Source: a virus
Reading direction: 5' to 3' (one strand)
IMG/VR virus record: IMGVR_UViG_3300028115_000137
Coordinates: 1-21,978 of that record
DNA length: 21,978 nucleotides
Position 1 is the stretch's first letter, and each line of letters begins with the position of its first letter. The notes under the pieces are model-generated. The model was not told the DNA's origin, did no database searches, and saw only the letters and a program-made list of their open reading frames with translations. Below are positions 3,324 through 18,900 of the stretch, in pieces. The translations under genes were made by a program, and so were the position numbers.

Positions 3324-3328
3324 ATATC

Positions 3329-3336
3329 TATTTAGT
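3329..3336 (-). promoter_or_regulatory. Late promoter box ACTAAATA, 5 nt before gp16-like ATG
   Basis: The minus strand reads ACTAAATA, then five bases (GATAT), then the ATG at 3323. The first A of the box is the last base of the gp4 stop codon. The spacing puts the expected late start site at or next to the A of ATG, so the mRNA would have almost no leader. Confidence 0.6.
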
Positions 3337-3782
3337 TACTTTCCACGCCCATTGTAGAAAAGGTCATCTTCTGTAACTACTCTAAATTTAATACCCTGTG
3401 CTTTGCAGAATGCTTGTGCTGATTTCCATTTGGCATGATTGATAGCAATTGTTGCTCGTTGCTTTGCATTTTTAACTTTTTCTGTTATAATACTTTCTGC
3501 TTTGGGTTTTATTTCTATTAACTCTGCGTTTGTTCTTCCATATTTGTCTTGGTAAACAATAAAAAAGTCTGGAACATAATTAGTTCTTCTACCTTTAAAA
3601 GGATGTAAATAAGGAATAACAATTGACTCACTCGCCCACTTGATTACTTTGTCATTAGTATCACAAAAAATCATAAATGTAAGTTCCCAACCTGATCTGT
3701 ATTTAGGTTTACCTTTCCCTACATATTTGTGTGGATTTTTTACAGTATAGATACCTTGTGCGTATTTTTTTCTGCGAGGCAC
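3336..3782 (-). CDS. gp4: Head completion protein, T4 gp4 type (TnsA-like nuclease fold)
   Basis: T4 gp4 is needed to finish the DNA-filled head before tail joining. This 148-aa protein has the family's typical layout: a basic N-terminus, RSGWELTF at residues 29-36, VPDFFIVY at 70-77 and ELIEIKPK at 87-94. E33, D72 and E90-x-K92 line up as a PD-(D/E)xK active site of the TnsA type, so nuclease chemistry may be retained. The start is GTG at 3782 (no ATG fits), preceded by a strong AGGGG that overlaps the TAG stop of the 125-aa gene, implying translational coupling. It shares a late transcript with the 393-aa and 125-aa genes. Confidence 0.85.
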   Translation of the reverse strand: MPRRKKYAQGIYTVKNPHKYVGKGKPKYRSGWELTFMIFCDTNDKVIKWASESIVIPYLHPFKGRRTNYVPDFFIVYQDKYGRTNAELIEIKPKAESIITEKVKNAKQRATIAINHAKWKSAQAFCKAQGIKFRVVTEDDLFYNGRGK

Positions 3783-3791
3783 TTGTTACCC

Positions 3792-4169
3792 CTACGGCAA
3801 TACGTTGCGTTGTACTGCTTGATTAGGAGTAGGCACTTTTGATACTCCATACAATGCTGTTTTTGACTTTAATAAATTGAGATAAAAAGCCATTTCTGTG
3901 TTTACTTGAACTTTTGTTTGTACATTAGCCTTAAAGTAATCCATAAAGATTTGAATGTTTGTGCCTGTTTCTTGTGCTATTCTAAATAATGTAGTTGCAA
4001 ATTGTGATGCTGTTTGTTTAGTTCTTTCAGATTCGGGATTACCTTTTAAAACACCTAAGAAATATGAATATACTGAATCCCAATCAGCGGCATTAACTTT
4101 TAATGGCACACTGTAATATGTGTCAAAAATTTCTAATGTGTTTTCTCTATATGTTATTTCTATTGGCAT
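3792..4169 (-). CDS. Conserved 125-aa protein of marine T4-like phages, unknown function
   Basis: A small, mostly helical protein: the N-terminal strand region MPIEITYRENTLEIFDTYY, then ATTLFRIAQETGTNIQIFMD and MAFYLNLLKSKTALYG (about residues 94-109), ending in a short polar tail. I recall close relatives of the same size in cyanophages next to structural genes, without assigned function; an assembly chaperone or a minor baseplate protein are possible roles by position. Its ATG shares a base with the stop of the 393-aa gene (TAATG), and a strong GGGAGGGG lies in the upstream gene's end, so the two are translationally coupled. Confidence 0.8.
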   Translation of the reverse strand: MPIEITYRENTLEIFDTYYSVPLKVNAADWDSVYSYFLGVLKGNPESERTKQTASQFATTLFRIAQETGTNIQIFMDYFKANVQTKVQVNTEMAFYLNLLKSKTALYGVSKVPTPNQAVQRNVLP

Positions 4170-5350
4170 TATGCCCCTCCCGTGCCGCCGCTATTTTGTG
4201 AGCCTGCCGCCGGTGGACTTTCTTGTGTATTATTATTATTAGCACCTGTAACTGTGCCTTGGTTAGCAATGTTTACAATACTCGGTGTTGCTCCGTTTGT
4301 TGGAGTATCGGTATCTCCACCTATACCTAAAGCATTAAAAACTGCATCTCTAATTCCGTTTTGTATTTGATCTTTTGCAGTTTCAATTAAACCTGATCCT
4401 TGAGTTATATATGTTTCTTTTAAGAATCGTATATAATCTTCTGCTGAAGCATCGTCTCCTAAGAATGCAGGTGGAAAATCACCTATTAAATTATTACCGC
4501 CCTGTTCCAGTGGACTTTCAGTTGAATCATAACTATCCGGTCCACCGAATCCTGCTACTAAATCTCCATTAAGTTCACGTCGGGGTAGTCCTGTACCGTC
4601 TTCTATATCTTCTCCTATCTTACCTGAATTATATATTACTGTTTCATAGTCGATAGTCATTCTATTTTGCATTGTTCCGCCACCGTCTGAATAATCATAA
4701 GTGTCGTGGTCAAATTGTGTAATTATAGGATTAATTAAAGTATAGGCTATAAAGTTTCCTGCCCACATACCATATACAGTAATGTTATTAAAGAAAGGAA
4801 CTTTTTCTCCGCCGTCTGCTCTATTTCCACCTTCGCCTCGGGCATCTCCTCTATAACCATATTCAGTATCACCTGATATTGATGGATCATATATGTTACG
4901 TCTATTATAATCTTTTATAGCAGGCGCTGTACTGAAAGGTGTAACAATAGGATTCCATGCATCTGCATAGTTATATCTATAATATGCGTCCCACATTGCA
5001 GTAACTTGCGATGCATTATCATCATGGAATGTTACTTCTATCGGTTGATATTTAATTTTTGATTGAATCAAACGTTTTCTATTGTATTGATTCATTTCTG
5101 TTACATCCATATTAAATGTGGGGAGTTTAATTGATTTAACAAGTAATCCGTAGTTTTGTCCTGTTGGGGGTTGATATGCTGTAGGATTAATTTCAAACCA
5201 AGTATGGAAAGTAAATTTAACCTTACCTGCATTGGCCATGCCTCCGGGCAAAAAGTTTTTAGCGGCATGTGTCCAGTCACGTACATATACTCTACCTGCA
5301 AATGCGTTAAGTATATCGTCCGGTAACGTTGTAAAAGGCCATTGCGACAT
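4169..5350 (-). CDS. Tail-tube-like protein, candidate tube initiator (T4 gp54/gp48 type)
   Basis: This 393-aa protein has an N-terminal half resembling the tail tube. Residues 44-111 (KVKFTFHTWFEI, then LLVKSIKLPTFNMDVTEMNQYN, then IEVTFHDD) follow the same order as gp19 in this window (YRFRVNFINF, then VVDCARPQVQFDEITMNVYN, then LAINVRDD). T4 gp54 and gp48, which start and cap the tube on the baseplate, also have the tube fold, so a tube-initiator or tube-end role is inferred. The C-terminal 100 residues are Gly/Asn/Ser/Pro-rich low complexity. It has AGGAG 8 nt before the ATG and a GATAAATA box 20 nt upstream, just after the gp19 terminator. The exact T4 counterpart is uncertain. Confidence 0.6.
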   Translation of the reverse strand: MSQWPFTTLPDDILNAFAGRVYVRDWTHAAKNFLPGGMANAGKVKFTFHTWFEINPTAYQPPTGQNYGLLVKSIKLPTFNMDVTEMNQYNRKRLIQSKIKYQPIEVTFHDDNASQVTAMWDAYYRYNYADAWNPIVTPFSTAPAIKDYNRRNIYDPSISGDTEYGYRGDARGEGGNRADGGEKVPFFNNITVYGMWAGNFIAYTLINPIITQFDHDTYDYSDGGGTMQNRMTIDYETVIYNSGKIGEDIEDGTGLPRRELNGDLVAGFGGPDSYDSTESPLEQGGNNLIGDFPPAFLGDDASAEDYIRFLKETYITQGSGLIETAKDQIQNGIRDAVFNALGIGGDTDTPTNGATPSIVNIANQGTVTGANNNNTQESPPAAGSQNSGGTGGA

Positions 5351-5370
5351 ATATTATTCTCCTATAAGAG

Positions 5371-5378
5371 TATTTATC
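5371..5378 (-). promoter_or_regulatory. T4-type late promoter box GATAAATA
   Basis: GATAAATA on the minus strand, 20 nt before the ATG of the 393-aa tail-tube-like gene and just below the terminator of gp19. It should drive the 393-aa, 125-aa and gp4 genes as a separate late unit. Confidence 0.7.
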
Positions 5379-5396
5379 TAAACAATAAACCCATAA

Positions 5397-5420
5397 AAAA
5401 ACCGGTCGAAACCGGTTTTT
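5397..5420 (-). terminator. Intrinsic terminator after the tail tube gene
   Basis: A perfect inverted repeat AAAAACCGGT / ACCGGTTTTT with a 4-nt loop (TTCG on the minus strand). The second arm on the minus strand runs into a T tract. It lies between the gp19 stop and the late promoter of the next gene, so it ends the gp19 transcript. Confidence 0.85.
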
Positions 5421-5442
5421 CTATTTAAAATAATTCTAATAC

Positions 5443-6090
5443 TTACGTAGCAGTACCAATCTGACTTGGGAATGTCTGTAGACCAGACTGTCCAACACCA
5501 GCACCCGGTACGCCGTTTAGATCGCCGCCAGCATTTGTCTGGACTGCGTTATCGTAACGTAGAGTCATAGCAATAGTCACTGCATCAGATGTACCATAGT
5601 TTAGAGTCTGATAGTTTGCTTGTTGTAAGAAACAACCTGCTAATGACCAGTTTTCTAATACTGTTGGTGTATTGATACCGTTACCACCGTCTAAGATTTG
5701 AATTTCAGTTTCAAATTTATAATCTCCACCTGCTGCCGCTGAAGACTGCTCATAGAAATCTAATTGACGTTGTAACTGAGCACCAACTGCTTTTGATACA
5801 TTACCAGAAGCATCGTCTCTGACGTTGATAGCAAGTGTTTGCCATGTGTGTTTACCAGCAAGATAGACACGTGAGTTATACACGTTCATAGTGATTTCGT
5901 CAAACTGAACTTGTGGTCTCGCACAGTCTACTACTTGTCTAGTAAGAATAAGTGAAGAATCATCGTCAAAACCAAAATTAATAAAGTTCACACGGAATCT
6001 ATATTGAAGTTTTGGCATCAACAAGTTTTGGTTAGCGCCTCCCTCAGGTTGTACCGAAAGTTTTGCTAATGTATCTGAGGCTGTTGCCAT
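5443..6090 (-). CDS. gp19: Tail tube protein (T4 gp19 type)
   Basis: The tail tube is the inner channel through which DNA passes; gp19 hexamers stack inside the gp18 sheath. This 215-aa protein sits directly after gp18, the usual order. Typical features: a flexible N-terminus, then MPKLQYRFRVNFINFGF, VVDCARPQVQFDEITMNVYN, and a beta-rich C-terminal half with VLENWSLAGCFLQQANYQTL. It is somewhat longer than T4 gp19 (163 aa), mainly at the polar C-terminus. Start support: CAGGAG 7 nt before the ATG. It has its own late box (6124-6131) and its own terminator (5397-5420), so it is probably expressed as a strong single-gene unit, fitting its high copy number in virions. Confidence 0.87.
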   Translation of the reverse strand: MATASDTLAKLSVQPEGGANQNLLMPKLQYRFRVNFINFGFDDDSSLILTRQVVDCARPQVQFDEITMNVYNSRVYLAGKHTWQTLAINVRDDASGNVSKAVGAQLQRQLDFYEQSSAAAGGDYKFETEIQILDGGNGINTPTVLENWSLAGCFLQQANYQTLNYGTSDAVTIAMTLRYDNAVQTNAGGDLNGVPGAGVGQSGLQTFPSQIGTAT

Positions 6091-6123
6091 TGTTAATCTC
6101 CTGTTTTAATATATCTTAATATA

Positions 6124-6131
6124 TATTTATC
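6124..6131 (-). promoter_or_regulatory. T4-type late promoter box GATAAATA for tail tube
   Basis: The minus strand reads GATAAATA followed by an A/T-rich stretch, 33 nt before the gp19 ATG. It sits just below the hairpin that follows gp18. Confidence 0.7.
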
Positions 6132-6140
6132 TTTTTAATT

Positions 6141-6162
6141 CAGAGAGGCCGAAGCCTCTCTG
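6141..6162 (-). terminator. GC-rich hairpin between sheath and tube genes
   Basis: A perfect 9-bp stem CAGAGAGGC / GCCTCTCTG with the loop TTCG (minus strand), closed by a C-G pair: the extra-stable cUUCGg tetraloop. On the minus strand it is followed by AATTAAAAAG rather than a T run, so it is either a weak terminator or a 3'-end stabiliser of the gp18 mRNA. On the plus strand a T run does follow, but no plus gene ends here. Confidence 0.65.
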
Positions 6163-6175
6163 TATATCTTTTTTA

Positions 6176-9100
6176 TTAAGATCCTGATAACTCACCAGTG
6201 TTGAATATTCTGACCGGAACGTAGATAAACTCAGCGGCTTTCACGGGCTCTACTGCTATGTCAATCCAAAGTTCATTTCGATCAATTCTTGCTGGAGTGT
6301 TGTTAGAATCATCACAAACTACTGAGTAGTCATATAATCCTCGTTTTGAAACTAGATCCTGGAACAATGATTCTACTACTGCTTTAATAGATTTTCTTGT
6401 TTGAGGGTCATTAGGTTCAAAGACAAATGGTCTCGCGGCTAATATTAATTGTCTACGTATGTAAGCAACTAATCTTGCTACGTTTACTCTGTCTAATGCA
6501 GATGATGAATCAAATGAAGTTTTGTTACCATAGTTCAATAATCCATTACCTGTAAAGAATACCATTGGGTTAATAAAGTTAGTGTATAACACATCTCTAA
6601 TTCCAATACGTGTTCTGATTGAGTTAAACTCGCCTTCGTCATCGATGTATCCGATGCTTGTAGCATTATCGATTATACCACGTCTAGTACCTGCTGGTGC
6701 TAACCAAGGATAAGCAATATTGTCATTACGCAACATAGTTCTGACCATCATGTGTGATGAAGGAACAGCAACTAAGTTACCTGATAGATCACTAGTGATA
6801 CCTGATGGGTAGAATAGACCCATATAAGTATTTCTACTTACAAGTCCATCTTCACCTGTAGTTGTTGCACCTGCGGCGTTAGTTGCCCAAGCCTGAATTT
6901 CAGTTGCATCATCTTTCAGTCTCATTGGTGTATCACCAACAATGTAAGAAGTCTCACCTCTATCAGAGTTCAATGCGATCATGTTAGGTTGTAGTTCAGG
7001 ATAACCCGGTGTTGCTTGTAAGTTGAAGTAGTTATCTTCGTCTCTAATTGCAACGTTAGAGTCAATTGCTGAACGTAATGCTTGTGTTACCATTGCTCTT
7101 TGTGCCTTACGACCTGCATTCATTGCACCGTTAGATGCATCACCTGAAGCAGATACCCATGCATCTTTCTGTGTTGGTAAAGTGTCATTCGGGAATCTGT
7201 CGTTGTTAAAGTAGTTTACACGATATTGCTTCACGTTGTATGAAGAACGTCTTGTGTTCCAAAGCAACATACCTTGTGGGTAATTTGATGATAACGGAGC
7301 ATCAACATCTAAGTAATCACTTCCTAGCAATGATTTGATGGTCGGCATCGGATCATTTGCTGGGTTAGTTGTTCCGTTAGTTGCCCAACGTGCATCTTTA
7401 AACAAGATACCTTGTGGTGTAGTTTGATCTGAGTTGTCAATTAAGACCCACTTATCAGTAGCACTACCGCCACCTGTTGCTTGTACTGACTGCCATCTGT
7501 AAAGTAACGGATAGTTTTCTAAGTCAGAAGTATCTAACCAAAGATCACCGTATACTAATGGTGTGCCGTCACTTTGAGTAGTAGGCTCACTAGCAGTTAC
7601 GATAGGTCCATTAGGATCAGTTGCATTTACGACTGATGGGCTAGGTAAACCATTACCATCATAACCTTGTTGGCTATAACCCTTCCAATTACCGTCATAG
7701 TTGATCATAATATCTACTTGATCAGTTGTTGAATAGTACCAGTTAGTAAAGTTGCTAGGTATTGCAGTCGGAGCACCTTCGTTTGCTGTTAATGAATCAG
7801 CACCTGAAGTTGTTAATGAGAACTCTCTCCAGTTAGACAACTGAGTTGTGAACGCATCTGCGCCTGTACCTGTACTTAAAGTATAAGATGTAACAACGCC
7901 TGCTGTAACACTTGTAACTTTTACTTGTAAGTCATTTGCTGGTGAAGCACCGCCCAAGTCTGCACCTGAGAAAGTAACTACGTCACCTACAGCATGACCT
8001 GTACCGCCGTTTACTACTGCATCCGGATCAAAGTCATAATAACCATAGTCATTAGTTACTGCGATTGATAATGCAGTACCTGACCCTGATGTAGAACTCT
8101 GAGTAGGAGTAAATGAGATATCATCTCTGAATGGTCCTGTCTTACAACCTGCTGTTGCAGTTGTAAAGCCGGCTTCTGAGAATAAACCAGAAGATACACC
8201 TGTTACGTTGTCATAATCATCTAAGATAATAACACCACCTGAAGTGTGTTGAATTTGAATTGAACCATCATCGTTTACACTTGCTGAAGTGTAAGGAATG
8301 TTCGCCGCTGACCATGCAGTTACAAAGTCAGATGCATCAGTTGCATCACCCAAGTTAAATGTATAAGGGGTACTTAATGTTTGTGAACCTGGAGTTGAAA
8401 TCTGAACTCTTGCTACATATGGTCCTGAAGTAAAGTCTGGTGCAGTGTTTGTACCATTAATTACTGTTGCACCTGTTGCTACTCTATAGAAGTAGTATAC
8501 TGGAGCCGCTGTGTACTCACCGTTAAATCCATATTGTGCATAAACACTTCCTGCTGGAATTGCTTGTCCACCTGTTGAGTCTGCTGAATAGATTTGTGCC
8601 CAATCAGAGTCTGCAAAAGTAGGTGTTTTAGCAGTATATGAAGATGATGTAGAATCATATTCAGAAATTACTGGTTGTAATCCTGTTCCGTCAACCTTAA
8701 TCCATACAGAGCCAGTCGGAGCAGGCTGAGCCTGTCCTGATTGCCATAATGGCTGTTGAGCAGATGTACCATAAAATGCTCTTGGTTGGAAGCCAGTTAC
8801 GTTAGTACCTGTAAATCCTAAGTCTGTAAAGATAGTACCTGTTGCGTTAGCAAATCTAATGTAGAATGGTACGTTTGAACTACCTTGATCTCCACCTGTC
8901 TGTGAAGAATAAACTTCAAGTTTGTTATCAACTACTGCCGCTGAAACATATTCCCAACCTAATGAGTTAATGTCTGCCGCTAACTGAGAAATAGTGTTGT
9001 TAGGAGCCGCTGATACAGTAAGTTGTGCTAAGTTTGTACCGTTAACGATCAAGTCGATTGTATCGCCTTGTGTTAATGTAGGATTAGAAGTAGGACAAGT

Positions 9101-9784
9101 GATTGAAGGCCATGCCTTGAACCAGTCTACTGAATCTAAACCAACCCATGTATTCTGACGATTCTTGTACCAATATGTAGGTGCATTGTCATTGTTAGGG
9201 TTTCTATAATTAGGTATAGCAACTACTGCATAGTCACCGATATTTCCTACTGATTGTAGAGGTGTACCTATTGACACTAAAGTAGAGTCAGAGATAACGA
9301 TTGGTGCTTTTGCTGTAAATGCTCCTGTTGTTGAATTAAACTCATTGATTCCCCATGTAGAAGAAGTTGTGTTTAACCAAAACGAACCGTTTTGTGGTGC
9401 CCCTGTTGGACGACCTGTTGATCCTACTAAACTTGCTAGATCAACGTCTGCTCTTAATACAAATACTTGATTTGAAATACCAAGTGCTGAGTAAGCCGCT
9501 AATAGTCCATATTCATTTAACTCATAGCCTTGCAACGGAGTACCGTTTGATGCTGTGTAAAAGAATGGGTTACCATATAAAGTAACTAGATCACGTTGAG
9601 AAGTTACTCTGTATAATTTACCTGCGTTTGCGGCTGTTGTGGCTGCCGCAGTTGCTGTTGATGTTGGATCCGCTTTATCTTGTGCTGTTGCTAACAAGAA
9701 GAAGGGAATCGATGCTGTTGCGCCTGGCAAGTATTGACTTTCATCAATGATGCTTACTTCTACGCCTGGTGATGTTAGTGCCAT
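6176..9784 (-). CDS. gp18: Contractile tail sheath protein, giant form (T4 gp18 type)
   Basis: Sheath subunits surround the tube and contract to drive it through the cell envelope. The N-terminus (MALTSPGVEVSIIDESQYLP) and the C-terminal quarter are typical: a region near residues 980-1050 with NTYMGLFYPSG and WLAPAGTRRGII, then VNVARLVAYIRRQLILAARP near 1095-1115, ending in beta strands with the final FIYVPVRIFNTGEL. At 1202 aa it is about 1.8 times T4 gp18 (659 aa). The extra length lies in the middle (about residues 120-850), made of Ser/Thr/Gly-rich modules, some repeated: GSFWLNT...EFNSTTGAFTAKAP near 129 and GSVWIK...EYDSTSSSYTAKTP near 353. AAAGGAAT precedes the ATG, with a late box 58 nt upstream. 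Confidence 0.95.
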   Translation of the reverse strand: MALTSPGVEVSIIDESQYLPGATASIPFFLLATAQDKADPTSTATAAATTAANAGKLYRVTSQRDLVTLYGNPFFYTASNGTPLQGYELNEYGLLAAYSALGISNQVFVLRADVDLASLVGSTGRPTGAPQNGSFWLNTTSSTWGINEFNSTTGAFTAKAPIVISDSTLVSIGTPLQSVGNIGDYAVVAIPNYRNPNNDNAPTYWYKNRQNTWVGLDSVDWFKAWPSITCPTSNPTLTQGDTIDLIVNGTNLAQLTVSAAPNNTISQLAADINSLGWEYVSAAVVDNKLEVYSSQTGGDQGSSNVPFYIRFANATGTIFTDLGFTGTNVTGFQPRAFYGTSAQQPLWQSGQAQPAPTGSVWIKVDGTGLQPVISEYDSTSSSYTAKTPTFADSDWAQIYSADSTGGQAIPAGSVYAQYGFNGEYTAAPVYYFYRVATGATVINGTNTAPDFTSGPYVARVQISTPGSQTLSTPYTFNLGDATDASDFVTAWSAANIPYTSASVNDDGSIQIQHTSGGVIILDDYDNVTGVSSGLFSEAGFTTATAGCKTGPFRDDISFTPTQSSTSGSGTALSIAVTNDYGYYDFDPDAVVNGGTGHAVGDVVTFSGADLGGASPANDLQVKVTSVTAGVVTSYTLSTGTGADAFTTQLSNWREFSLTTSGADSLTANEGAPTAIPSNFTNWYYSTTDQVDIMINYDGNWKGYSQQGYDGNGLPSPSVVNATDPNGPIVTASEPTTQSDGTPLVYGDLWLDTSDLENYPLLYRWQSVQATGGGSATDKWVLIDNSDQTTPQGILFKDARWATNGTTNPANDPMPTIKSLLGSDYLDVDAPLSSNYPQGMLLWNTRRSSYNVKQYRVNYFNNDRFPNDTLPTQKDAWVSASGDASNGAMNAGRKAQRAMVTQALRSAIDSNVAIRDEDNYFNLQATPGYPELQPNMIALNSDRGETSYIVGDTPMRLKDDATEIQAWATNAAGATTTGEDGLVSRNTYMGLFYPSGITSDLSGNLVAVPSSHMMVRTMLRNDNIAYPWLAPAGTRRGIIDNATSIGYIDDEGEFNSIRTRIGIRDVLYTNFINPMVFFTGNGLLNYGNKTSFDSSSALDRVNVARLVAYIRRQLILAARPFVFEPNDPQTRKSIKAVVESLFQDLVSKRGLYDYSVVCDDSNNTPARIDRNELWIDIAVEPVKAAEFIYVPVRIFNTGELSGS

Positions 9785-9842
9785 AATAATATTCCTTTTG
9801 TATGATTTTGAGGGTTACACCCTGATTGTTTTTTCATACTAT

Positions 9843-9850
9843 TATTTATC
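9843..9850 (-). promoter_or_regulatory. T4-type late promoter box GATAAATA for tail sheath
   Basis: GATAAATA on the minus strand, 58 nt above the gp18 ATG. The predicted leader is about 50 nt and includes a short inverted repeat AGGGT-TAC-ACCCT at 9811-9823 (minus AGGGTGTAACCCT) and the AAAGGAAT ribosome site. Confidence 0.7.
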
Positions 9851-9880
9851 TTGTTGCACAAAAATTTATGGTTTAACATA

Positions 9881-9890
9881 CCTTCGAAGG
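9881..9890. repeat. Perfect 10-bp palindrome between divergent late promoters
   Basis: CCTTCGAAGG reads the same on both strands. It lies in the 125-bp divergent region between the gp18 and HNH-like genes, 6 nt above the plus-strand TATAAATA box. A dimeric protein-binding site is possible; chance is not excluded. Confidence 0.4.
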
Positions 9891-9896
9891 CATTTT

Positions 9897-9904
9897 TATA
9901 AATA
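9897..9904 (+). promoter_or_regulatory. Late promoter box TATAAATA, 5 nt before HNH-like ATG
   Basis: An exact match to the T4 late consensus TATAAATA, then CAGTT, then the ATG at 9910. No ribosome-binding site can fit between the expected start site and the ATG, which predicts a leaderless transcript. Confidence 0.7.
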
Positions 9905-9909
9905 CAGTT

Positions 9910-10260
9910 ATGAGTTTACCTAGACCAATATGTAAGATTTGCAACAGAAAAGTTTGTGCCGTAAACTATATTAAGAACGGCAAACGACATTATAGAAGTA
10001 TGTGCAATCAATGCGGTAAAGTAAACAAAACAAGAAAGCCCATATATCTTTGGCAAAGAGCAGGATATGAAAAACAAGATAATTGTTTTTTATGTGGATT
10101 TAAAAGTTTATATTCTACACAAATGGTAGTGTATCATATAGACGGAAGACCTCAAAATACAGATTTTACAAATTTAAGAACGATATGTTTAAATTGTATT
10201 GAAGTTGTAAAAAGAAAACATGTAATGTGGCACAGGGGAGATTTAACTGTTGACTATTAA
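9910..10260 (+). CDS. Zinc-knuckle HNH-like endonuclease family protein
   Basis: A 116-aa basic protein with paired cysteines at C8/C11, C32/C35, C59/C62 and C93/C96, suggesting two zinc sites. The second pair frames an HNH-like core: YHIDG (H76, D78), N83 and N88, then LRTICLNC. In typical HNH nucleases the last CxxC is followed by His; here it is CLNCIEVV, so the catalytic set may be incomplete and the protein may only bind nucleic acid. I recall similar proteins in many cyanophages. It stands alone on the plus strand, opposite to its neighbours, and its 3' end overlaps the end of the dNMP kinase by 18 bp. Its promoter is a perfect late box abutting the ATG. Nuclease activity is not certain. 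Confidence 0.75.
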   Translation: MSLPRPICKICNRKVCAVNYIKNGKRHYRSMCNQCGKVNKTRKPIYLWQRAGYEKQDNCFLCGFKSLYSTQMVVYHIDGRPQNTDFTNLRTICLNCIEVVKRKHVMWHRGDLTVDY

Positions 10261-10863
10261 CTCCATATGTTTGTGCAATTCATCGATTGTACCATTATTG
10301 TCAACTTGATAATCATAATCTAATCCGACACTACTATACTCACTAGCATGAACTCCTAAATCAACTAACCTTGCTAGTGCTTGAGGGTTTTCGTAATAAT
10401 TATAATCGACTGCATCATTTAACCATGTAGGTTGTTCGCCTCGATTGACTCTGACTGTAGTTCCACCTGCATTTTTAATTGCTTGTACCTCATTTTTAAA
10501 TCTACAATCAGTAATAACTACGTTATCTTCTATTTTACGTAATTGATTTTCGATAGACGATACCCAAATATCATTATGAAATGATCGTCTACCTACTTCA
10601 GTTCCCCAATACTGTAATACCCAACGAGGAGTTAAATGAGGCATGTCTAATCGGTTTGCCCACCACTCGTCAACTTCTTCTCGCCACTCTCTACTAGATT
10701 GAGTTGTACCTTCTAGCATTTCTCTGTCCCAGCCAAAGATAGCAGATACGCAATCTTTTAGAGGACCTGCATAACTGAGTTTTCTAAAACCATGAAATCT
10801 GATAAGATAGTCAGCCGCAGTGTCTTTGCCACTGCCGATAAGTCCTGTAATACCTATAATCAT
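10243..10863 (-). CDS. gp1: Deoxynucleoside monophosphate kinase (T4 gp1 type)
   Basis: T4 gp1 phosphorylates dGMP, dTMP and hydroxymethyl-dCMP to diphosphates for phage DNA synthesis. This 206-aa protein opens with the P-loop GLIGSGKDT (residues 7-15) in the GKD form typical of this family, followed by YAGPLKDCVSAIFGWDREML (about 36-55), a Trp/Arg-rich substrate region (REWREEVDEWW), RWVLQYWGTEVGRR (about 80-93) and VVITDCRFKNEVQAI (about 115-129). Length and motif order fit the family. It is likely an early or middle gene, consistent with the perfect sigma-70 promoter ahead of it, although it sits among late structural genes. AGGA lies 9 nt before the ATG. Its 3' end overlaps the convergent HNH-like gene. 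Confidence 0.9.
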   Translation of the reverse strand: MIIGITGLIGSGKDTAADYLIRFHGFRKLSYAGPLKDCVSAIFGWDREMLEGTTQSSREWREEVDEWWANRLDMPHLTPRWVLQYWGTEVGRRSFHNDIWVSSIENQLRKIEDNVVITDCRFKNEVQAIKNAGGTTVRVNRGEQPTWLNDAVDYNYYENPQALARLVDLGVHASEYSSVGLDYDYQVDNNGTIDELHKHMELIVNS

Positions 10864-10892
10864 ATTGGATAGTCCTGTAGTAAAGTAATAAT

Positions 10893-10921: not shown

Positions 10922-10926
10922 GTATT

Positions 10927-12246: not shown

Positions 12247-12255
12247 GCAATGTGA

Positions 12256-13041
12256 TTAGCCCTGTATCCAAGTAAGAGGTTGTGAGTAATCTACGTAATC
12301 ACGCAAGTCTTTAAGACATTTTTCTTGCCCTGCTAATCCTTCAGCCTTCATTGCCGCTCCATTAAGAGCAGTGCCACCTGCAGGGCCTGCAATAGTTGAG
12401 AATTTTTCACGTGCTTGGCCAATAGAAATAGTTACAGTTGCTAATGTAAAATCTTCAATCCAAGGTGCAATGCCCGGATCTTGCAATAAAGATGTTTCTG
12501 GGCGTTGGATGTCAGCCCAAATAAGAACTTGTTCACCTGATCCTTTGAAGTCTCTAACAAATCTAATTGTTTTAGTTACTGGATCAAAAGTATAGATAAC
12601 AAATCCACCAAACATTCTAGCGGCAAGTTCTACATACCCTGCATAGAAGTCATATGTTGCTAATCCACCTGCATAATTATAGTTTAACAAGTAAGTGTTT
12701 AGAATAGCAGATGAGAATGGATCGAATGATGATGCGGCTGGACCAGTTTCAAGACCGATTGTACGTCTGAAACATTGCCTTACATTAATAAATTCAGTAG
12801 GAAGTGTGTATGTATCAATATCTTTTTCTATTGTCAATAAAGTATAAGATTCTTGTACTGAATTCTCTGCACGTTGTCTATATGTTTTAATGCAATAGTT
12901 ATATGCGGCTTCATAATGTTCTGGATCTAATTCTAAGTCTACAATACCGTCGCCCAACCTATAACGGATGTTGTCGAACATATTTTCTTTTAACTGCTCG
13001 AGGTTTTCTCCGTTTGGTACTGCTAGTTGTTCTGATGACAT
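12256..13041 (-). CDS. gp13: Neck protein (T4 gp13 type)
   Basis: In T4, gp13 and gp14 form the neck that closes the filled head and receives the tail. This 261-aa protein matches the marine-phage form of gp13 as I recall it: an N-terminal helix region with YRLGDGIVDLELDPEHYEAA (about residues 27-46), YRQRAENSVQESY (54-66), YTLPTEFINVRQCFRR (77-92), a beta-rich middle, and a C-terminal helical part including PWIEDFTLATVTISIGQARE and a closing YVDYSQPLTWIQG. It is a little shorter than T4 gp13 (309 aa). TAGGAAT precedes the ATG, and a late box lies 22 nt upstream, inside the gap after the SGNH-like gene. Confidence 0.72.
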   Translation of the reverse strand: MSSEQLAVPNGENLEQLKENMFDNIRYRLGDGIVDLELDPEHYEAAYNYCIKTYRQRAENSVQESYTLLTIEKDIDTYTLPTEFINVRQCFRRTIGLETGPAASSFDPFSSAILNTYLLNYNYAGGLATYDFYAGYVELAARMFGGFVIYTFDPVTKTIRFVRDFKGSGEQVLIWADIQRPETSLLQDPGIAPWIEDFTLATVTISIGQAREKFSTIAGPAGGTALNGAAMKAEGLAGQEKCLKDLRDYVDYSQPLTWIQG

Positions 13042-13063
13042 ATTGATAAATTCCTATTTCTAG

Positions 13064-13071
13064 TATTTATC
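13064..13071 (-). promoter_or_regulatory. T4-type late promoter box GATAAATA for gp13
   Basis: GATAAATA on the minus strand in the 33-bp gap between the SGNH-like gene and gp13, ending 22 nt above the gp13 ATG. It would let neck and glycosyltransferase-like genes be expressed late, separately from the genes above. Confidence 0.7.
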
Positions 13072-13074
13072 AGT

Positions 13075-13833
13075 CTAAATGTTTTTCTGTTTTATATAAT
13101 TAAACAAATCAGTGGCTCTGGATAGATGTGCGTCTGCTCCATGATGGCCATATTTGGCATTTGGGTTAATCATTCCTGCTTCTTTATATTTTTCATAGAA
13201 ACCATACTTATTGTCTCTATACATGTAATAACGTTTGGCATCAATTTTTGACAAATAAGGTCTTAACCATTTCATATTTCTATTGTTAAAAGCAATACCA
13301 GAATTTGTCATTAGATATCTGATATTTTCTGCTTTGAAAAAATATTGCAATGATAAAGCATCCTTGGCAGTCAGACATTCAGTATAAATTTCTGAATATA
13401 CCAAAAATCTTTGTGCTGTTAAAAACTGTTCTTTTTCTTGCGGAGCAACATGATGTGGATCTGTCATTGCATTTACTTGAACTGAACTTAAAAATGATGG
13501 GTCTGCCCAATCAGCACAAGTATCTTGGTCAATACCTACATCGTGTGGAACAGGTGCTTCTATTCTACAACTCTCTGCCCAATTGACTAAAACAAAAAGG
13601 TTGTTTGCTTTATTTGACACTAAATCTTGGTTAAGTGTAAACCAATTTAGTACACTACGATGTATAGCACCATTAGAAGAACCGTTCCTTGCAATATTGA
13701 TGGGAACATGATCCATCATTTTTGCTAATTGGTTACCAAAACTTGCTTGACGATTTTCTGGGCTTGATAAGTTCCCATCTATTTCCGAACCAGCGGCATG
13801 ACTACACCCCGCAATCAACATATAATTTGCCAT
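13075..13833 (-). CDS. SGNH/GDSL-type hydrolase-like protein
   Basis: A 252-aa protein with the order of SGNH-hydrolase blocks: block I as AGCSHAAGS (residues 8-16, nucleophile Ser11), a Gly at 33, block III as NGSSN (50-54), and block V near the end as GADAH (232-236) with Asp234 and His236 as the other catalytic residues. SGNH enzymes cleave esters, often acetyl groups on sugars. The form with GCSH and a short D-x-H is common in marine phage proteins of unknown substrate. Possible targets are host capsule or LPS acetyl groups; no export signal is visible. It follows the 380-aa gene by 4 nt and uses AAAGG in that gene's end as ribosome site, so both share a transcript. Confidence 0.68.
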   Translation of the reverse strand: MANYMLIAGCSHAAGSEIDGNLSSPENRQASFGNQLAKMMDHVPINIARNGSSNGAIHRSVLNWFTLNQDLVSNKANNLFVLVNWAESCRIEAPVPHDVGIDQDTCADWADPSFLSSVQVNAMTDPHHVAPQEKEQFLTAQRFLVYSEIYTECLTAKDALSLQYFFKAENIRYLMTNSGIAFNNRNMKWLRPYLSKIDAKRYYMYRDNKYGFYEKYKEAGMINPNAKYGHHGADAHLSRATDLFNYIKQKNI

Positions 13834-13837
13834 ATAA

Positions 13838-14980
13838 TTAAAACGCCTTTAAAATAATCATTGAATCGTTAAAACGACCCTTCGGTTGAACACCGACTGC
13901 TTTAATATCATCAAAGAATTTACGTGCCGCGGGCTTACTGCCCATAATTTCTTTTAATTGTTCTTTGGGTTTACGTAATGTCTTAATTGCACTCTTAGAC
14001 TTGTCAAATCCATACAAAGTGTTTCCTTTAACAAACATTTCTCCACCAAGATCGTCTGCGATATAGTGATGAAGTTTTCTTTTAGCAGTATCATAGCACC
14101 ATGCTTCTTTAGACAGATGCAACTCTGTGGGTCTAATGCTTTCTAATTTTAAGTTAGTTGTTTCGCATTCAAACCTTTTCTGATATTTTAAACTTCTAGT
14201 TGCTTTTTCAGGAGTGATAGGTTTAGTTTTACGTTTAGCCCTATTTTTAATTTTAAGGGCTTGATATGAATTTAATACTCCAATCATTGCATCATAGGCG
14301 CTGATAATACTTTTAATTTTTCTTTTATTAAAATGACTATATGCTTCAATTAATTGTTCATCTTTCCCTTCAATAACTTCTTTAAATTCTTTTTGTTCAA
14401 ATGTATAACTTTCGACTAGTTGAGGGATATGATTTGGTAAAGGATTGTATGTGTTTAATATTCTTAGAATAGCAGTATTAAATTTAGCATCAACTTTTAT
14501 TTCATCTTCAAACAGTTGATCCATAATGCCATCGATCTCTCCACCTGCTTCCATTAACTTGCCAAGCATGATTTCTTGTATAGAAGGACGATTGGGTTTG
14601 TCTTTTGCTTTTTCTTCTTTTACTTGAGCAATCTTTTTACCTTTCTCTAACCATTCTTCTTTGAGTTTGGCAATATGATTTATATGCCCTTCTGGCATGT
14701 AACCAACTCTATTTAAAAAATAGACTGATGTACCTGTAGAATTAAAGTTCCAGTCTGGGTTCCTAAGAATAATTTCGATTTCTTCTTCGGTGTAGCCAGA
14801 TTCTTTTTTAAGCCAAGTCTTAAATTCAGTTAGTCTTTTCTTATCACTGATTTCTGTACGAATAAAGTACTGGCAGTCTTGGTATGCTTTTGCCTGGCCT
14901 TCGGGGTCTTCGATGTTTTTGTGTTTTTCCCAGTCTGGCTCAGGGGTCAGATAAACTGTTTTTTGCTTACGTCTAGCCAT
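13838..14980 (-). CDS. Conserved basic 380-aa protein of marine T4-like phages
   Basis: A Lys-rich, mostly helical protein. It starts MARRKQKTVYLTPEPDWEKH, has a middle region with GKDEQLIEAYSHFNKRKIKS (about residues 206-225), and a C-terminal half rich in basic residues with KYQKRFECETTNLKLESI, a YGFDKSKSAIKTLRKPKEQL stretch and the ending FNDSMIILKAF. From memory, full-length relatives with the same GKDEQLxEAYSHF motif and the same C-terminal pattern occur in cyanophages, without assigned function. Binding to nucleic acid or a minor virion role are possible from the charge. AAGGGAC precedes the ATG. A sigma-70-like promoter and a divergent late promoter for the plus-strand genes lie in the 120-bp gap above it. 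Confidence 0.82.
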   Translation of the reverse strand: MARRKQKTVYLTPEPDWEKHKNIEDPEGQAKAYQDCQYFIRTEISDKKRLTEFKTWLKKESGYTEEEIEIILRNPDWNFNSTGTSVYFLNRVGYMPEGHINHIAKLKEEWLEKGKKIAQVKEEKAKDKPNRPSIQEIMLGKLMEAGGEIDGIMDQLFEDEIKVDAKFNTAILRILNTYNPLPNHIPQLVESYTFEQKEFKEVIEGKDEQLIEAYSHFNKRKIKSIISAYDAMIGVLNSYQALKIKNRAKRKTKPITPEKATRSLKYQKRFECETTNLKLESIRPTELHLSKEAWCYDTAKRKLHHYIADDLGGEMFVKGNTLYGFDKSKSAIKTLRKPKEQLKEIMGSKPAARKFFDDIKAVGVQPKGRFNDSMIILKAF

Positions 14981-15021
14981 TTTGTCCCTTAATGAAATGA
15001 ATGTTCATACTTAGTGTTCGC

Positions 15022-15050
15022 ATTGTACATCAAATAATTTTTTAATTCAA
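15022..15050 (-). promoter_or_regulatory. Sigma-70-like promoter for the 380-aa gene
   Basis: On the minus strand TTGAAT (15050-15045), 17-bp spacer, TACAAT (15027-15022): four and five matches of six to consensus with ideal spacing. The predicted start is near 15015, giving a leader of about 35 nt. The A/T richness makes a chance match possible. Confidence 0.5.
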
Positions 15051-15087
15051 CCTCTATTTACCCAAATTCTGCGTCTCATTGTGTTGA

Positions 15088-15095
15088 GATAAATA
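15088..15095 (+). promoter_or_regulatory. Late promoter box GATAAATA, 5 nt before gp14-like ATG
   Basis: GATAAATA, then TATAT, then the ATG at 15101. No Shine-Dalgarno lies within 10 nt of the ATG. Same geometry as the HNH-like, Nudix and gp16-like genes. Confidence 0.65.
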
Positions 15096-15100
15096 TATAT

Positions 15101-16858
15101 ATGCCAAGATTAAGTTTATACCGGGAACAGAAACAAAACGATTACCGTTTTTTAGACAGAAGTATTTCTGAGCAGTTGACTGTTGGCGGTACTGATCTCT
15201 ATGTCCATAAGTATGCAGGCCCGATGGATCAAGGACCTTCTGCTGATTTTACACAACCTCAATATAGTTCTTTAGACCCAACAAATATACAAGATTTGTT
15301 GTTTTTAGAGAACAGAGACAGAAAATATGAAAAGGATATTTATCGATTACGGGGCCATTATAACGTACAAAACTTAGACTTTGATCTTAGTCAGTTTGGT
15401 TTATTTTTAAGTAATGATACTATTTTTATTAATGTTCATTACAATGACATGATCGATATCATAGGCAGAAAGTTAATGGTAGGTGATGTTATCGAATTAC
15501 CTCACTTACTAGATTACAATCCATTAAACGATGATGCTACAGAATTTCCAGTAGCACTAAAAAGATTTTATCAAGTTACAGATGCTAACTATGGCAGTGA
15601 AGGTTTTTCACAAACATGGTACCCTCATCTATGGCGTATCAAATGTGAAAAATTAGTAGATAGCCAAGAGTTTCAGGATATCTTGCGTCAACCAACTGAC
15701 AAAGACAATTACTTAGGTGATTGGGATAAAAACAAAACATACCCTGCAGGGTATACAATGACATTTGGTGACAAAAATTATATTGCATTACAAGAAGTAC
15801 CTGCAGGAACAAAACCCGGTGATACTGATCCGGATCCGTACTGGGAACTGGATACAGGTAAAACACTTAAAGATGTTCTAGGTCGATATAATGAAAATAT
15901 TAGAATCAATGATGCTAATTTAAAAGAAGCCGCACGTATTGTACCGAAGGCCGGGTATGATACATCTAATTTATATGTCGTACCTGGCTATGGTATCTTT
16001 GAAGCAAACGGTGTACCATCTGACAAAGAAAATCAACCCGCACCTCCTGTCGATGTACGTTCATGGATGCCCGGTAATAGCCCATTAACTGCTACTGGTG
16101 AAGTCATTACTATGAAAAGTGACAAATACAAATATGAATCTACTGGTATAAGAATACCAAAAGAAGTCATTGACGTAATGCAAGCCAAACATGGTGAACA
16201 AGATATAGACTTAGAAGCAATGATAGCAAAGTTTGTACAAGCAAACTTATCCATTGCAGTTGAAGCACCAGAAATGTCATCAACTGGCTCAGGTCAGATG
16301 GAAGGCACAAAATTATTAACAGTTAATATAAGTGGTCCTGTAACAGGTCCATATGGTACTGCTGATAACACTTACGCAACAGCAGATCAGGATCCTACTC
16401 AACCAGGCTTTACAGGTACAGAACCATATGGTCCAAATACAATGGACTATCGTGCTGATTGTGATCCTCGTTTTCAATACATAGCAAGATATACTCCTCG
16501 TGACTTTGGTTATACATCAGGTTACTTAACAGGAGAAGGTGCTCCCCCTAATGGACTCCCAGCAGGTGCAGGTATTTCGTTCCCGCAAAGTCCACAAGTT
16601 GGAGATTATTTCTTACGTATAGATTATACACCTAATGTGTTATATCGTTGGAACGGTACTTTATGGTTAAGAGTCAGTGAAGATGTAAGAACGTCTACAG
16701 GCTTTACTAGTGATGACACATCACAATTATCTGGATTCATTAATAATGATGATACGATATATAGTAACAACGATGAAGCAAACGTACCATCTGCTCAAGG
16801 ACTAAGTGGTATCTTAGATTTGGAACCAGATGACAATCCACCAAGTGACGGAACATAA
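15101..16858 (+). CDS. Virion structural protein, gp14-like neck region plus carbohydrate-binding-like module
   Basis: The N-terminal 200 residues are the conserved part: MPRLSLYREQ, DLLFLENRDRKYEKDIYR, FDLSQFGLFLSNDT, GRKLMVGDVIELPHL (about 128-142) and SQTWYPHLWRIKCEKL (about 170-185). Their order resembles T4 gp14 (FGMQVQDEVTL, EGDLIYFPM, then a strand pair), so a neck role is inferred, but at 585 aa it is over twice gp14 (256 aa). Residues about 205-250 (GDWDKNKTYPAGYTMTFGDK, then YIALQEV, ending YWELD) look like a CBM5/12 chitin-binding-type module inserted in it. Near 500-528 is a GDYFLRIDY...LYRWNGTLW module. The next gene starts on its stop codon (TAATG). A separate true gp14 could lie elsewhere. 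Confidence 0.75.
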   Translation: MPRLSLYREQKQNDYRFLDRSISEQLTVGGTDLYVHKYAGPMDQGPSADFTQPQYSSLDPTNIQDLLFLENRDRKYEKDIYRLRGHYNVQNLDFDLSQFGLFLSNDTIFINVHYNDMIDIIGRKLMVGDVIELPHLLDYNPLNDDATEFPVALKRFYQVTDANYGSEGFSQTWYPHLWRIKCEKLVDSQEFQDILRQPTDKDNYLGDWDKNKTYPAGYTMTFGDKNYIALQEVPAGTKPGDTDPDPYWELDTGKTLKDVLGRYNENIRINDANLKEAARIVPKAGYDTSNLYVVPGYGIFEANGVPSDKENQPAPPVDVRSWMPGNSPLTATGEVITMKSDKYKYESTGIRIPKEVIDVMQAKHGEQDIDLEAMIAKFVQANLSIAVEAPEMSSTGSGQMEGTKLLTVNISGPVTGPYGTADNTYATADQDPTQPGFTGTEPYGPNTMDYRADCDPRFQYIARYTPRDFGYTSGYLTGEGAPPNGLPAGAGISFPQSPQVGDYFLRIDYTPNVLYRWNGTLWLRVSEDVRTSTGFTSDDTSQLSGFINNDDTIYSNNDEANVPSAQGLSGILDLEPDDNPPSDGT

Positions 16859-18453
16859 TGGCACAATATTTTTACGACAATCAAATAAGAAGATTTTTAC
16901 TACAGTTTGCTAAAATTTTTAGCAACTGGTATGTGACTTCAGGTACTGATCCTAACGGCAATCCTATACTCGTTAGAGTACCTATCCAATATGGAGATGC
17001 AAGTAGACAAGCATCAACAATTATTGCAAACAACTCTGCAAGTAATTTACCTTCTGCACCTTTGATAACTTATTTTATTAATGGATTAGAGTATGATCAA
17101 AGACGTACACAAGAGCCTTACTTTGTAGAGAAACAAAATGTACGTCAAAGAGATTATGATCCTACTACAGCCGCTTACGGAGAGACACAGGGTCAAGCAT
17201 TTACTGTTGAAAAGTTAATGCCAGTTCCATACACACTTAGATTACAAGTAGACTTTTGGACGACTAACTATCAACAAAAATTAGAATTGATTGAACAATT
17301 AGGAACATTATTCAATCCGTCATTAGAAATTCAAAATACTGATAACTTTATTGACTGGACATCTTTAACAGTTGTATATCAGGATGGACTTACATTCTCA
17401 TCTCGTACTATACCACAAGGTACAGGTAATCCTATTGATGTTATGTCATGGAAATTCTACTTACCCATGTGGTTAACGACATCTGCCAAACTTAAAAAGT
17501 ATGGTGTTATTAACAAGATTATCACTTCTATCTTTGAAGGTAAAACACAAGAAGATATGAAAGATGATGACCTGTTATTAGGTACAAGACAAAAGATATC
17601 TCCATATGGTTATCAAGTATTATTCATAGGTAATTCATTACAGTTATTACCGCAAGATCAACCAGATCAACCTTCTAACTTCTCATTAGATAAGCCAGTT
17701 AATCCAGACACTGACTTGTATTGGTCATCTATCTTAAACATGTATGGTGCATACCGAGGAGGTATTTCACAAGTTGCATTACAAAATCCATATATGGATA
17801 CAGAGATTATGGGTACAATTGTTATTGATCCTCTTGATGATCGTTATCTAATTTATAATGTCGATGAAGATACATTACCACAGAATACATTAGACCCTGT
17901 AACATCAGTTATTAATCCTCAAGTATCAGGACCAAACAACGGACTCCCCGGGCCTATTCCTAATGTGAGATATTTGTTAACACAAGACATAGGTTATCAA
18001 ACTTCATCATGGGGAACAATTATAGGTAGTCAGACAGGTACATCAACGTTACCTGAATCTCAAGTTGCAACAACAATGACCCCTGGTACACTGTATCAAA
18101 TTGCTACTATAGGTACAACTGATTTTAGATACTATGGTGCTCCGAATAATAATATAGGCACCCAGTTCACAATGAATAATGTACAACCAGAAGGCACAGG
18201 TACTGTATACACTGTAGTAGAAGCAAAAGCAAATGACATTATACAATTTAACGCAGACATTATGACTTGGTTTGTTGCGTTTGATTCTGTCATCAATGAA
18301 GATGAACTTGAATATGTAACTAACTTAACTACAGAAATTCAATATCGTTGGGCGGCTACACCTTCTGATTCAACTCAGCCCGGTTTGCCTGCACAATGGA
18401 TGAAGTCTTACGAAGGTTATTACAACGAAGGCGATTACAGTATAGTTATTTAA
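16858..18453 (+). CDS. gp15: Tail terminator / sheath stabiliser (T4 gp15 type), long form
   Basis: T4 gp15 forms a hexamer capping the finished tail and binds the neck. The N-terminus here matches its pattern: AQYFYDNQIRRFLLQFAKIF (T4: YFYNSSFRRYATLMGDLF), VRVPIQYGDASRQ (T4: RVPITYAS), then a region around residues 115-165 with KLMPVPYTLRLQVDFWTTNY and LIEQLGTLFNPSLEIQ, equivalent to T4 ELSIFTRYEDDMFQIVEQIL-PYFQP. At 531 aa it is about twice T4 gp15 (272 aa); the extra C-terminal 280 residues are beta-rich and include a segment near 390-460 (YQIATIGTTDFRYYG). Its ATG overlaps the stop of the gp14-like gene, implying coupled translation and matched amounts. Confidence 0.78.
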   Translation: MAQYFYDNQIRRFLLQFAKIFSNWYVTSGTDPNGNPILVRVPIQYGDASRQASTIIANNSASNLPSAPLITYFINGLEYDQRRTQEPYFVEKQNVRQRDYDPTTAAYGETQGQAFTVEKLMPVPYTLRLQVDFWTTNYQQKLELIEQLGTLFNPSLEIQNTDNFIDWTSLTVVYQDGLTFSSRTIPQGTGNPIDVMSWKFYLPMWLTTSAKLKKYGVINKIITSIFEGKTQEDMKDDDLLLGTRQKISPYGYQVLFIGNSLQLLPQDQPDQPSNFSLDKPVNPDTDLYWSSILNMYGAYRGGISQVALQNPYMDTEIMGTIVIDPLDDRYLIYNVDEDTLPQNTLDPVTSVINPQVSGPNNGLPGPIPNVRYLLTQDIGYQTSSWGTIIGSQTGTSTLPESQVATTMTPGTLYQIATIGTTDFRYYGAPNNNIGTQFTMNNVQPEGTGTVYTVVEAKANDIIQFNADIMTWFVAFDSVINEDELEYVTNLTTEIQYRWAATPSDSTQPGLPAQWMKSYEGYYNEGDYSIVI

Positions 18454-18470
18454 GAGGTACCTTGTCACCT

Positions 18471-18478
18471 ACTAAATA
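18471..18478 (+). promoter_or_regulatory. Late promoter box ACTAAATA, 5 nt before Nudix ATG
   Basis: ACTAAATA, then ATTGT, then the ATG at 18484, in the 30-bp gap after gp15. No ribosome site is close to the ATG. Identical box and spacing to the one before the gp16-like gene on the other strand. Confidence 0.6.
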
Positions 18479-18483
18479 ATTGT

Positions 18484-18900
18484 ATGGCGATTATTATAAA
18501 TCAATCTGCTGGTATTTTCTTTTATTGTAAATCTACCAAACGATCTCTATATCTTTTAAGAAATGAATCTAAAAACCCTACATGGTCTATACCAGGGGGC
18601 AAGATTGAAAAGAATGAAACTTTATTAGCAGGATTAAAAAGAGAATGTTTAGAAGAAATCTCACATTGGGACGATGATTTTAAATTAGTTCCTATCCAAA
18701 AATTCGTCAATAATACATTTGCATATCACACCTTTTTTTGTGAGATTGAAAAAGAATTTTCCCCAATTCTTAATGACGAACATTGTGGGTATGCTTGGGT
18801 AGGTGGTGACAAATACCCAAAACCTCTACACCCCGGATTATTCTCTACAATCAATATCGATAACGTAGTAGACAAGTTATCTAGTCTAAAGAACTTATAG
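18484..18900 (+). CDS. Nudix hydrolase
   Basis: Nudix enzymes cleave nucleoside diphosphates linked to another group, such as dNTPs, ADP-ribose or capped RNA. The signature G-x5-E-x7-R-E-x-x-E-E is complete: G39, E45, R53-E54 and E57-E58, with Ser60 in place of the usual Gly. It is preceded by the usual strand and loop WSIPGGKIE (residues 34-42). At 138 aa it is a minimal single-domain form without a substrate-defining extension, so the substrate cannot be read from the sequence. Phage Nudix proteins may clean the nucleotide pool or alter host RNA. It is last in the plus-strand group, with its own late box directly before the ATG. The convergent holin-like gene ends 169 bp away. Confidence 0.92.
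   Translation: MAIIINQSAGIFFYCKSTKRSLYLLRNESKNPTWSIPGGKIEKNETLLAGLKRECLEEISHWDDDFKLVPIQKFVNNTFAYHTFFCEIEKEFSPILNDEHCGYAWVGGDKYPKPLHPGLFSTINIDNVVDKLSSLKNL

Follow-up and report, generated by a model that had tools for sequence, protein, structure and literature searches.

Four genes in the IMG/VR virus record IMGVR_UViG_3300028115_000137 (the window, meaning the whole stretch of 21,978 bases that was analysed) begin with an ATG exactly 5 nt behind a T4-type late promoter box, and it is very probable, judging from the sequence, that such boxes yield leaderless mRNAs that are translated from a 5′-terminal AUG. A gp55-like sigma factor on the host RNA polymerase would read the boxes as T4-type late promoters, the spacing of 5 (or 4) nt would set the A of the ATG at the transcription start (box arithmetic gives a leader of 0 or -1 nt), and translation would proceed by recognition of the 5′-terminal AUG instead of Shine-Dalgarno (SD) pairing. 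Two sets of transcripts would be produced, one leaderless and the other leadered with SD (sheath, tube and connector), with sigma-70-type promoters splitting the same way in part of the lineage. The window harbors tail sheath, tail tube, head-closure, Ad2-like and gp15-like genes, and the best matches of its sheath and gp14-like proteins among cultured phages are the jumbo phages Phosso, Atu_ph07, PA5oct and their relatives, and GAP32.

All four sites consisting of a box, 5 nt and an ATG that a preliminary description had listed on both strands are present, as shown in Table 1, and a fifth was found at 9849-9835 (minus strand), where it opens a 20-codon open reading frame (ORF) in the sheath leader. 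As for the names given to the four genes, the Nudix hydrolase is firm (PF00293), whereas the labels 'gp16-like', 'HNH-like' and 'gp14-like' call for correction: the matches of the first protein are a PHROG without assigned function and a DUF below threshold, the sole match of the second is a sub-threshold Pfam model (E = 0.0087), and the third matches a PHROG annotated as 'virion structural protein', with a gp15-like product (PF16724) encoded by the adjoining gene. In the window, the ATG of an ORF ≥60 aa follows a TAAATA hexamer at a distance of exactly 5 nt in four cases, while 14 other letter orderings each gave 0. The box counts are not above those of shuffled sequences (9 vs 10.5 and 5 vs 6.2), and simple box counting in the window was dropped as evidence because the counts are at chance. 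The non-random feature of the window boxes is their position relative to start codons, not their number.

The distances (d, the nt between TAAATA box and ATG) were pooled over 12 related contigs, with 14 permuted hexamers as controls. A total of 143 sites were obtained at the short distances, with 53 at d = 4 and 90 at d = 5 (about 17 expected; permuted means 7.8 and 9.1), while d = 6 to 15 hold a background of 2-13 sites each, d = 17 to 26 hold 13-29 each, and the permuted means stay at 6-11 over the whole range. The histogram had been proposed as a check, with a sharp 5-nt peak expected to stand apart from one at 20-40 nt, and this separation is seen, the short peak lying at 4-5 nt and the broad one beginning at 17 nt. 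Short spacing was observed in 72 ORF families, of which 21 recur in at least two contigs; among the permuted hexamers, 11 of 14 had at most 1 recurring family and three had 4-5, and these three overlap the box, AAATAT and ATAAAT being shifted readings of it and ATAATA overlapping its common continuation TAAATAATA. When all hexamers at distances of 0-30 before ATG were scanned with repeated contexts removed, TAAATA at d = 5 ranked first (87 vs 11.5), ahead of the SD hexamers, and TAAATA at d = 4 was picked up too (53 vs 12.7).

The spacing was then compared in relatives of the four genes, counted as distinct upstream sequences among loci. The start of the gp14-like gene is present in 65 of 80 loci, and its 28 distinct upstreams have d = 5 in 26 and d = 4 in 2, with positions -13 to -6 conserved at 93-100% and T at -1 in 96%; conservation over -40 to -14 is 29% to 86%, except for the T at -16 (100%). 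The spacing is retained where the upstream DNA diverges. The gp16-like gene (80 loci, 39 distinct) has d = 5 or 4 in 37, the remaining two having no ATG at the estimated start, and the HNH-like gene (43 loci, 17 distinct) has d = 5 in 15, the remaining two being one match that starts only at residue 19 and one that is cut by the contig end. For the Nudix gene (80 loci, 41 distinct), 22 have d = 5 or 4, and the other 19, read by eye, divide into 12 that carry a one-letter box variant at 5 nt (TAAATC-N5-ATG in 11, TAAATG-N5-ATG in 1), one whose TAAATC stands at 6 nt, five that have no box and a single truncated one; identity is ≤74% in all but the truncated one. A loss of the 5-nt spacing in relatives, which had been named as a refutation, was hence not found (28/28, 37/39, 15/17 and 22/41 at 5 or 4 nt, respectively); the spacing of 5 nt stands, but 4 nt is in use too, chiefly in the more distant contigs. 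Many relatives share a TTTACCCAA(A)TT stretch that lies 5′ of the gp14-like box, at about 15045-15065 in the window.

In the available text of a T4 review (PMC2988020), the first base of the late box is numbered -13; an 8-bp box therefore ends at -6 and the A of an ATG after 5 nt would stand at +1, which agrees with the numbering of about -13 to -6 and about +1 assumed in the preliminary description. The logos of both the short-spaced and the leadered sets, drawn from 8 bases before the hexamer onwards, show a TATAAATA-like box, as expected of T4-type late promoters. Among ATG starts, to which the start-codon tallies were confined, the d = 5 class has a pyrimidine before the ATG in 61/66 genes, compared with 114/181 with a box 16-45 nt away, 506/1126 boxless ORFs and 37/64 with an AT-only hexamer at the same place. 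Bacterial RNA polymerase prefers a pyrimidine at -1 and a purine at +1. At the +1 offset of leadered boxes, A was found in 61% in T4 (n = 28), 74% in PA5oct (n = 31), 50% in both Syn9 and KVP40, and 55% in HTVC008M. Separate lines of sequence evidence argue strongly for a predicted transcription start at the ATG, and that ribosomes would start on such 5′ ends follows from the known biology of leaderless mRNAs.

The d = 5 genes also have the AUG start without SD that is typical of leaderless mRNAs, since an SD-like stretch precedes only 2/66 of them, against 127/181 with a box 16-45 nt away and 435/1126 boxless ORFs. The absence of an SD near the ATGs is not independent evidence, because the box fills the SD position. 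In relatives of the gp16-like and Nudix genes, an SD-like stretch was seen in 0/8 and 0/8 (three of the Nudix 8 having no near TAAATA), and in 1/7 and 1/11 for the gp14-like and HNH-like genes, respectively. The sheath, tube and Ad2-like genes and the gene at 2183-2809, with box-to-ATG distances of 18-58 nt, have an SD-like stretch in all distinct relatives (8, 9, 8 and 9, respectively), and the second tube-like gene has it in about two-thirds of 6. An SD-like stretch precedes the major capsid gene in 46/46, and 44/46 have no TAAATA within 60 nt. The other late genes of the window had been described as having leaders of 20-60 nt; they do form a separate class, but the values of 20, 22, 22, 33 and 58 nt are box-to-ATG distances, so the leaders themselves would be about 5 nt shorter.

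Leadered orthologues of the gp14-like gene occur outside the lineage. The PA5oct orthologue starts at the equivalent Met, with GATAAATA 19 nt upstream and AGGAG between, the Atu_ph07 orthologue likewise starts at the equivalent Met, GAGG lying between it and a box 28 nt upstream, and the Phosso orthologue is similar, with its box 27 nt upstream by hand count and an SD; in SCTP-2 the gene lies directly behind another gene. No box at 4-5 nt was found among the N-terminally aligned PA5oct and Atu_ph07 orthologues listed, though for many queries the N-terminus was not aligned. Most simply, the gp14-like leader would have been lost in the lineage of the window. Counts at d = 4 and 5 together show no short class in T4 (3 vs a permuted mean of 2.6), Syn9 (0 vs 1.3), the first 220 kb of KVP40 (0 vs 0.9), PA5oct (3 vs 4.4) or the first 260 kb of Atu_ph07 (2 vs 2.6), while one is present in HTVC008M (13 vs 2.3); a second count agreed for all of these but Atu_ph07. 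Short spacing as a common trait of T4-like phages was rejected, as T4, Syn9 and KVP40 are without it.

The open hexamer scan also gave a TATAAT peak 6 nt before ATG (31 vs 7.3). A TTGACA at 17-18 nt accompanies nine of these 31 TATAAT-N6-ATG sites, perfect in seven and with one mismatch in two, compared with 7% with up to one mismatch at that spacing among TATAAT sites elsewhere (n = 1749). The 82 distinct perfect sigma-70 promoters (TTGACA-N16..18-TATAAT) have their ATG at 5-7 nt in 11 cases, at 8-22 nt in 1 and at 23-36 nt in 52. In the outgroups, allowing up to one mismatch, sites with ATG at 5-7 nt numbered 0 in Atu_ph07, T4 and KVP40 and 1 in PA5oct, Syn9 and HTVC008M. The two-peaked distribution expected of leader lengths where leaderless mRNAs occur is thus observed for late boxes and sigma-70 promoters alike, the portal gene excepted. 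Since the sigma-70 promoters split likewise, the mode would extend beyond late promoters, at least in some members of the lineage; the suggestion of a distinct expression mode is supported, but not its restriction to late promoters.

The preliminary description had also proposed a gp55-like late sigma factor, for which there is a homologue in the lineage but not on the window record. No gp55 was found in the first 16 contigs with PHROG families and home-made hidden Markov models (HMMs), and the PA5oct gene order (gp55, gp46, portal, gp23), together with a portal gene near the contig end without gp46 in contig G017, suggested that gp55 might lie beyond that contig. A gp55 homologue was then obtained in 14/80 portal loci, or in 14/26 when only loci with a full 10 kb before the portal gene are counted (best HMM E-value 8.7e-87); the other 12 of the 26 gave no match within the full 10 kb, and their gp55 may lie further off. 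One of the 14 gp55-bearing loci (L507) is on the 364-kb contig G024, which has the short peak itself (12 sites at d = 4 and 14 at d = 5) and carries short-spaced gp14-like, gp16-like and HNH-like genes. All six jumbo relatives searched have gp55, and the clamp loader gp44 is present in 6/6 lineage contigs. The HTVC008M clamp query for the sliding clamp gp45 found no match in the lineage contigs, nor did it in PA5oct. Phage-encoded bS21 was rejected as the cause, as it occurs in 8/17 records, the leadered PA5oct, Phosso and Atu_ph07 included. An IF3 homologue occurs in 2/17 records, both leadered relatives (Atu_ph07 and Phosso), and none was seen in the 12 lineage contigs, which are possibly incomplete. 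Relatives that might hint at the host were sought among genome contigs, and none was confirmed.

Several observations weigh against leaderless expression from these promoters. The portal gene of the wider lineage has its box at 4 to 26 nt, with a mode of 7 (39 distinct upstreams), and about 1% of 68 carry an SD-like stretch, therefore SD-independent initiation on short leaders must occur too. The lineage's own leadered boxes have A at the +1 offset in just 52%, in AT-rich DNA, and the preference for a pyrimidine at -1 is weak in the d = 4 class (24/40). Besides the five distant Nudix relatives without a box, a separate set of 7 gp14-like relatives has d = 5 in five, d = 20 in one and d = 1 in one. 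The contigs are of common ancestry, therefore the site counts are not independent. The 11 short sigma-70 sites come from G014, G017, G018 and G024 only (4/12 contigs) and from none of the contigs nearest to the window, and several G024 promoters resemble copies of one another; gp55, likewise, is not on the window record. Starts without SD were noted nearly throughout for the portal gene in L321 and L432-L511.

Other explanations of the short spacing have been weighed. The box might be a promoter for downstream genes, with the short-spaced genes translated from longer read-through transcripts, and the gp16-like and Nudix genes do lie closely behind a same-strand neighbour. However, opposite-strand genes precede the HNH-like and gp14-like genes, the position of the box leaves such transcripts without an SD, and read-through accounts neither for the 4-5 nt spacing in 21 recurring ORF families nor for the pyrimidine at -1, and we consider it quite improbable. 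Slightly less probable still is that TAAATA at -11 to -6 is a non-SD ribosome-binding element and no promoter: it sits at the usual SD position in a lineage where just 435/1126 boxless ORFs have an SD-like stretch, but the same box stands 16-45 nt before late genes that mostly have one (127/181) and 19-28 nt before the PA5oct and Atu_ph07 orthologues, and TATAAT has a 6-nt peak of its own, with a perfect -35 in 7/31. Finally, the promoter might prefer TATG at its start as an initiator, so that the ATG there is not necessarily a start codon. The ATG at the same place in the sheath leader, which opens no long ORF, would fit this, as would the 54 of 212 box-N4/5-ATG sites that open ORFs <40 codons; the other 158 open ORFs ≥40 codons, however, and the leadered boxes show A 52%, T 30% and G 22% at the three offsets from +1, with no ATG consensus, which makes an initiator the most improbable of these explanations.

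Table 1. Late boxes and associated genes in the window.
Feature	Position	Strand	Remarks
Late box ACTAAATA, 5 nt 5′ of ATG of gene 2838-3323	3329-3336	-	CTAAATA 3335-3329, ATG 3323; spacing kept in relatives
Predicted leaderless gene, 161 aa, 'gp16-like', PHROG of unknown function	2838-3323	-	
Late box TATAAATA, 5 nt 5′ of ATG of gene 9910-10260	9897-9904	+	ATAAATA 9898-9904, ATG 9910
Predicted leaderless gene, 116 aa, small HNH-like protein (sub-threshold match), flanked by minus-strand genes	9910-10260	+	
Late box GATAAATA, 5 nt 5′ of ATG of gene 15101-16858	15088-15095	+	ATAAATA 15089-15095, ATG 15101
Predicted leaderless gene, 585 aa, virion structural protein ('gp14-like')	15101-16858	+	
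Late box ACTAAATA, 5 nt 5′ of ATG of gene 18484-18900	18471-18478	+	CTAAATA 18472-18478, ATG 18484
Predicted leaderless gene, 138 aa, Nudix hydrolase (PF00293)	18484-18900	+	
Late box ATAAATA of tail sheath gene, ATG 5 nt downstream	9843-9849	-	
20-codon ORF from predicted +1 of sheath mRNA	9775-9837	-	Stop overlaps sheath start; kept in relatives
Leadered-class late box, 22 nt 5′ of ATG 2809	2832-2838	-	d 19-22 and SD-like stretch in 9/9 distinct relatives
Leadered-class late box, 20 nt 5′ of ATG 5350	5371-5377	-	SD-like stretch in about 2/3 of 6 distinct relatives
Leadered-class late box, 33 nt 5′ of tail tube gene 5443-6090	6124-6130	-	SD-like stretch in 9/9 distinct relatives
Leadered-class late box, 22 nt 5′ of Ad2-like connector gene 12256-13041	13064-13070	-	SD-like stretch in 8/8 distinct relatives

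A conserved GGGTGTAACCC inverted repeat lies in the sheath leader (9775-9849, minus strand), and this leader may encode a leaderless leader peptide or act as an RNA element. When its 20-codon ORF was examined for amino-acid selection, the differences proved to be mostly not synonymous, which gives no proof of coding. Directly 5′ of the HNH late box, at about 9875-9897, there is a palindrome CCTTCGAAGG followed by a T-run, conserved in relatives apart from slight variation, which looks like a terminator or an operator between divergent promoters. In the region 19415-19978 (minus strand), the ORF was probably given too early a start at 19927; a good SD accompanies an ATG near 19868, and with that start the leader behind the box at 19978-19972 would measure about 100 nt. 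A predicted leaderless protein of 105-109 aa, encoded at L349:12312 (minus strand) and in relatives in several lineage contigs, resembles A-type iron-sulfur carriers by eye.

Taken more widely, it seems fairly probable that the lineage runs a genome-wide leaderless programme, in which the position of the promoter, of sigma-70 type as well as gp55 type, sets whether a gene is read from a 5′-terminal AUG or through an SD. The choice would be gene-specific and conserved, with SD leaders for the bulk tail proteins and leaderless mRNAs for many proteins that are presumably of lower copy number. A SAR11 phage would have arrived at the same arrangement. If so, phages would hold a large set of leaderless genes recognisable from sequence alone, suggesting a second mode of initiating protein synthesis in a lineage of very large phages. 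The group is well represented in IMG/VR, with at least 598 stretches related to the portal protein, not all of them necessarily of the lineage. It might offer a direct test case for the choice that ribosomes make, in infected cells, between mRNAs with and without a leader, as well as an aid to start-site annotation in jumbo phages, and it raises the idea that hosts able to translate leaderless mRNAs may shape phage promoters.

Phage lambda cI is an example of a leaderless phage mRNA. For phage AR9, leaders of 26-491 nt are given in the available text of the report, whose authors remark that the transcripts of phages frequently lack a leader (PMC5312081); the existence of leaderless mRNA in phages is therefore not new in itself. 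In the accessible part of a methylophage study, TATAAAT served as a late promoter query (PMC9004378). No paper linking leaderless mRNA to T4-type late promoters was found in the open literature, subscription papers and preprints lying outside this scope. The T4 late promoters (gp55/gp33/gp45) resemble those of the lineage in the TAAATA box, the preferred G-A or A-C before it and the presence of a gp55 homologue, but T4, Syn9 and KVP40 (first 220 kb) have no 4-5 nt class, their boxes being mostly 16-40 nt from the ATG. With bacterial leaderless mRNAs of the Lactococcus type, the lineage shares the 5′-terminal AUG (expected here), the missing SD and the two-peaked leaders, which in Lactococcus, in the part of the report available, include none of 4-14 nt (PMC10986495). 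The lineage differs from Lactococcus in that a phage late box defines the class, which takes in an entire group of structural and accessory genes of the phage. The pelagiphage HTVC008M, of which no description as leaderless was found in the records consulted, is like the lineage in its 13 ORFs at d = 4-5 (permuted mean 2.3), and 12 of its 14 TAAATAN5ATG matches are annotated coding sequence starts, including head-closure, DNA end protector and baseplate genes; it is unlike the lineage in belonging to the Kyanoviridae, in its host SAR11 and in having no clear leadered peak. Sheath and gp14-like proteins place PA5oct, Phosso and Atu_ph07 among the top matches from cultured phages, and these three share gp55 with the lineage (6/6 jumbo relatives), but their gp14-like boxes stand 19, 27 and 28 nt upstream, respectively, and are accompanied by an SD.

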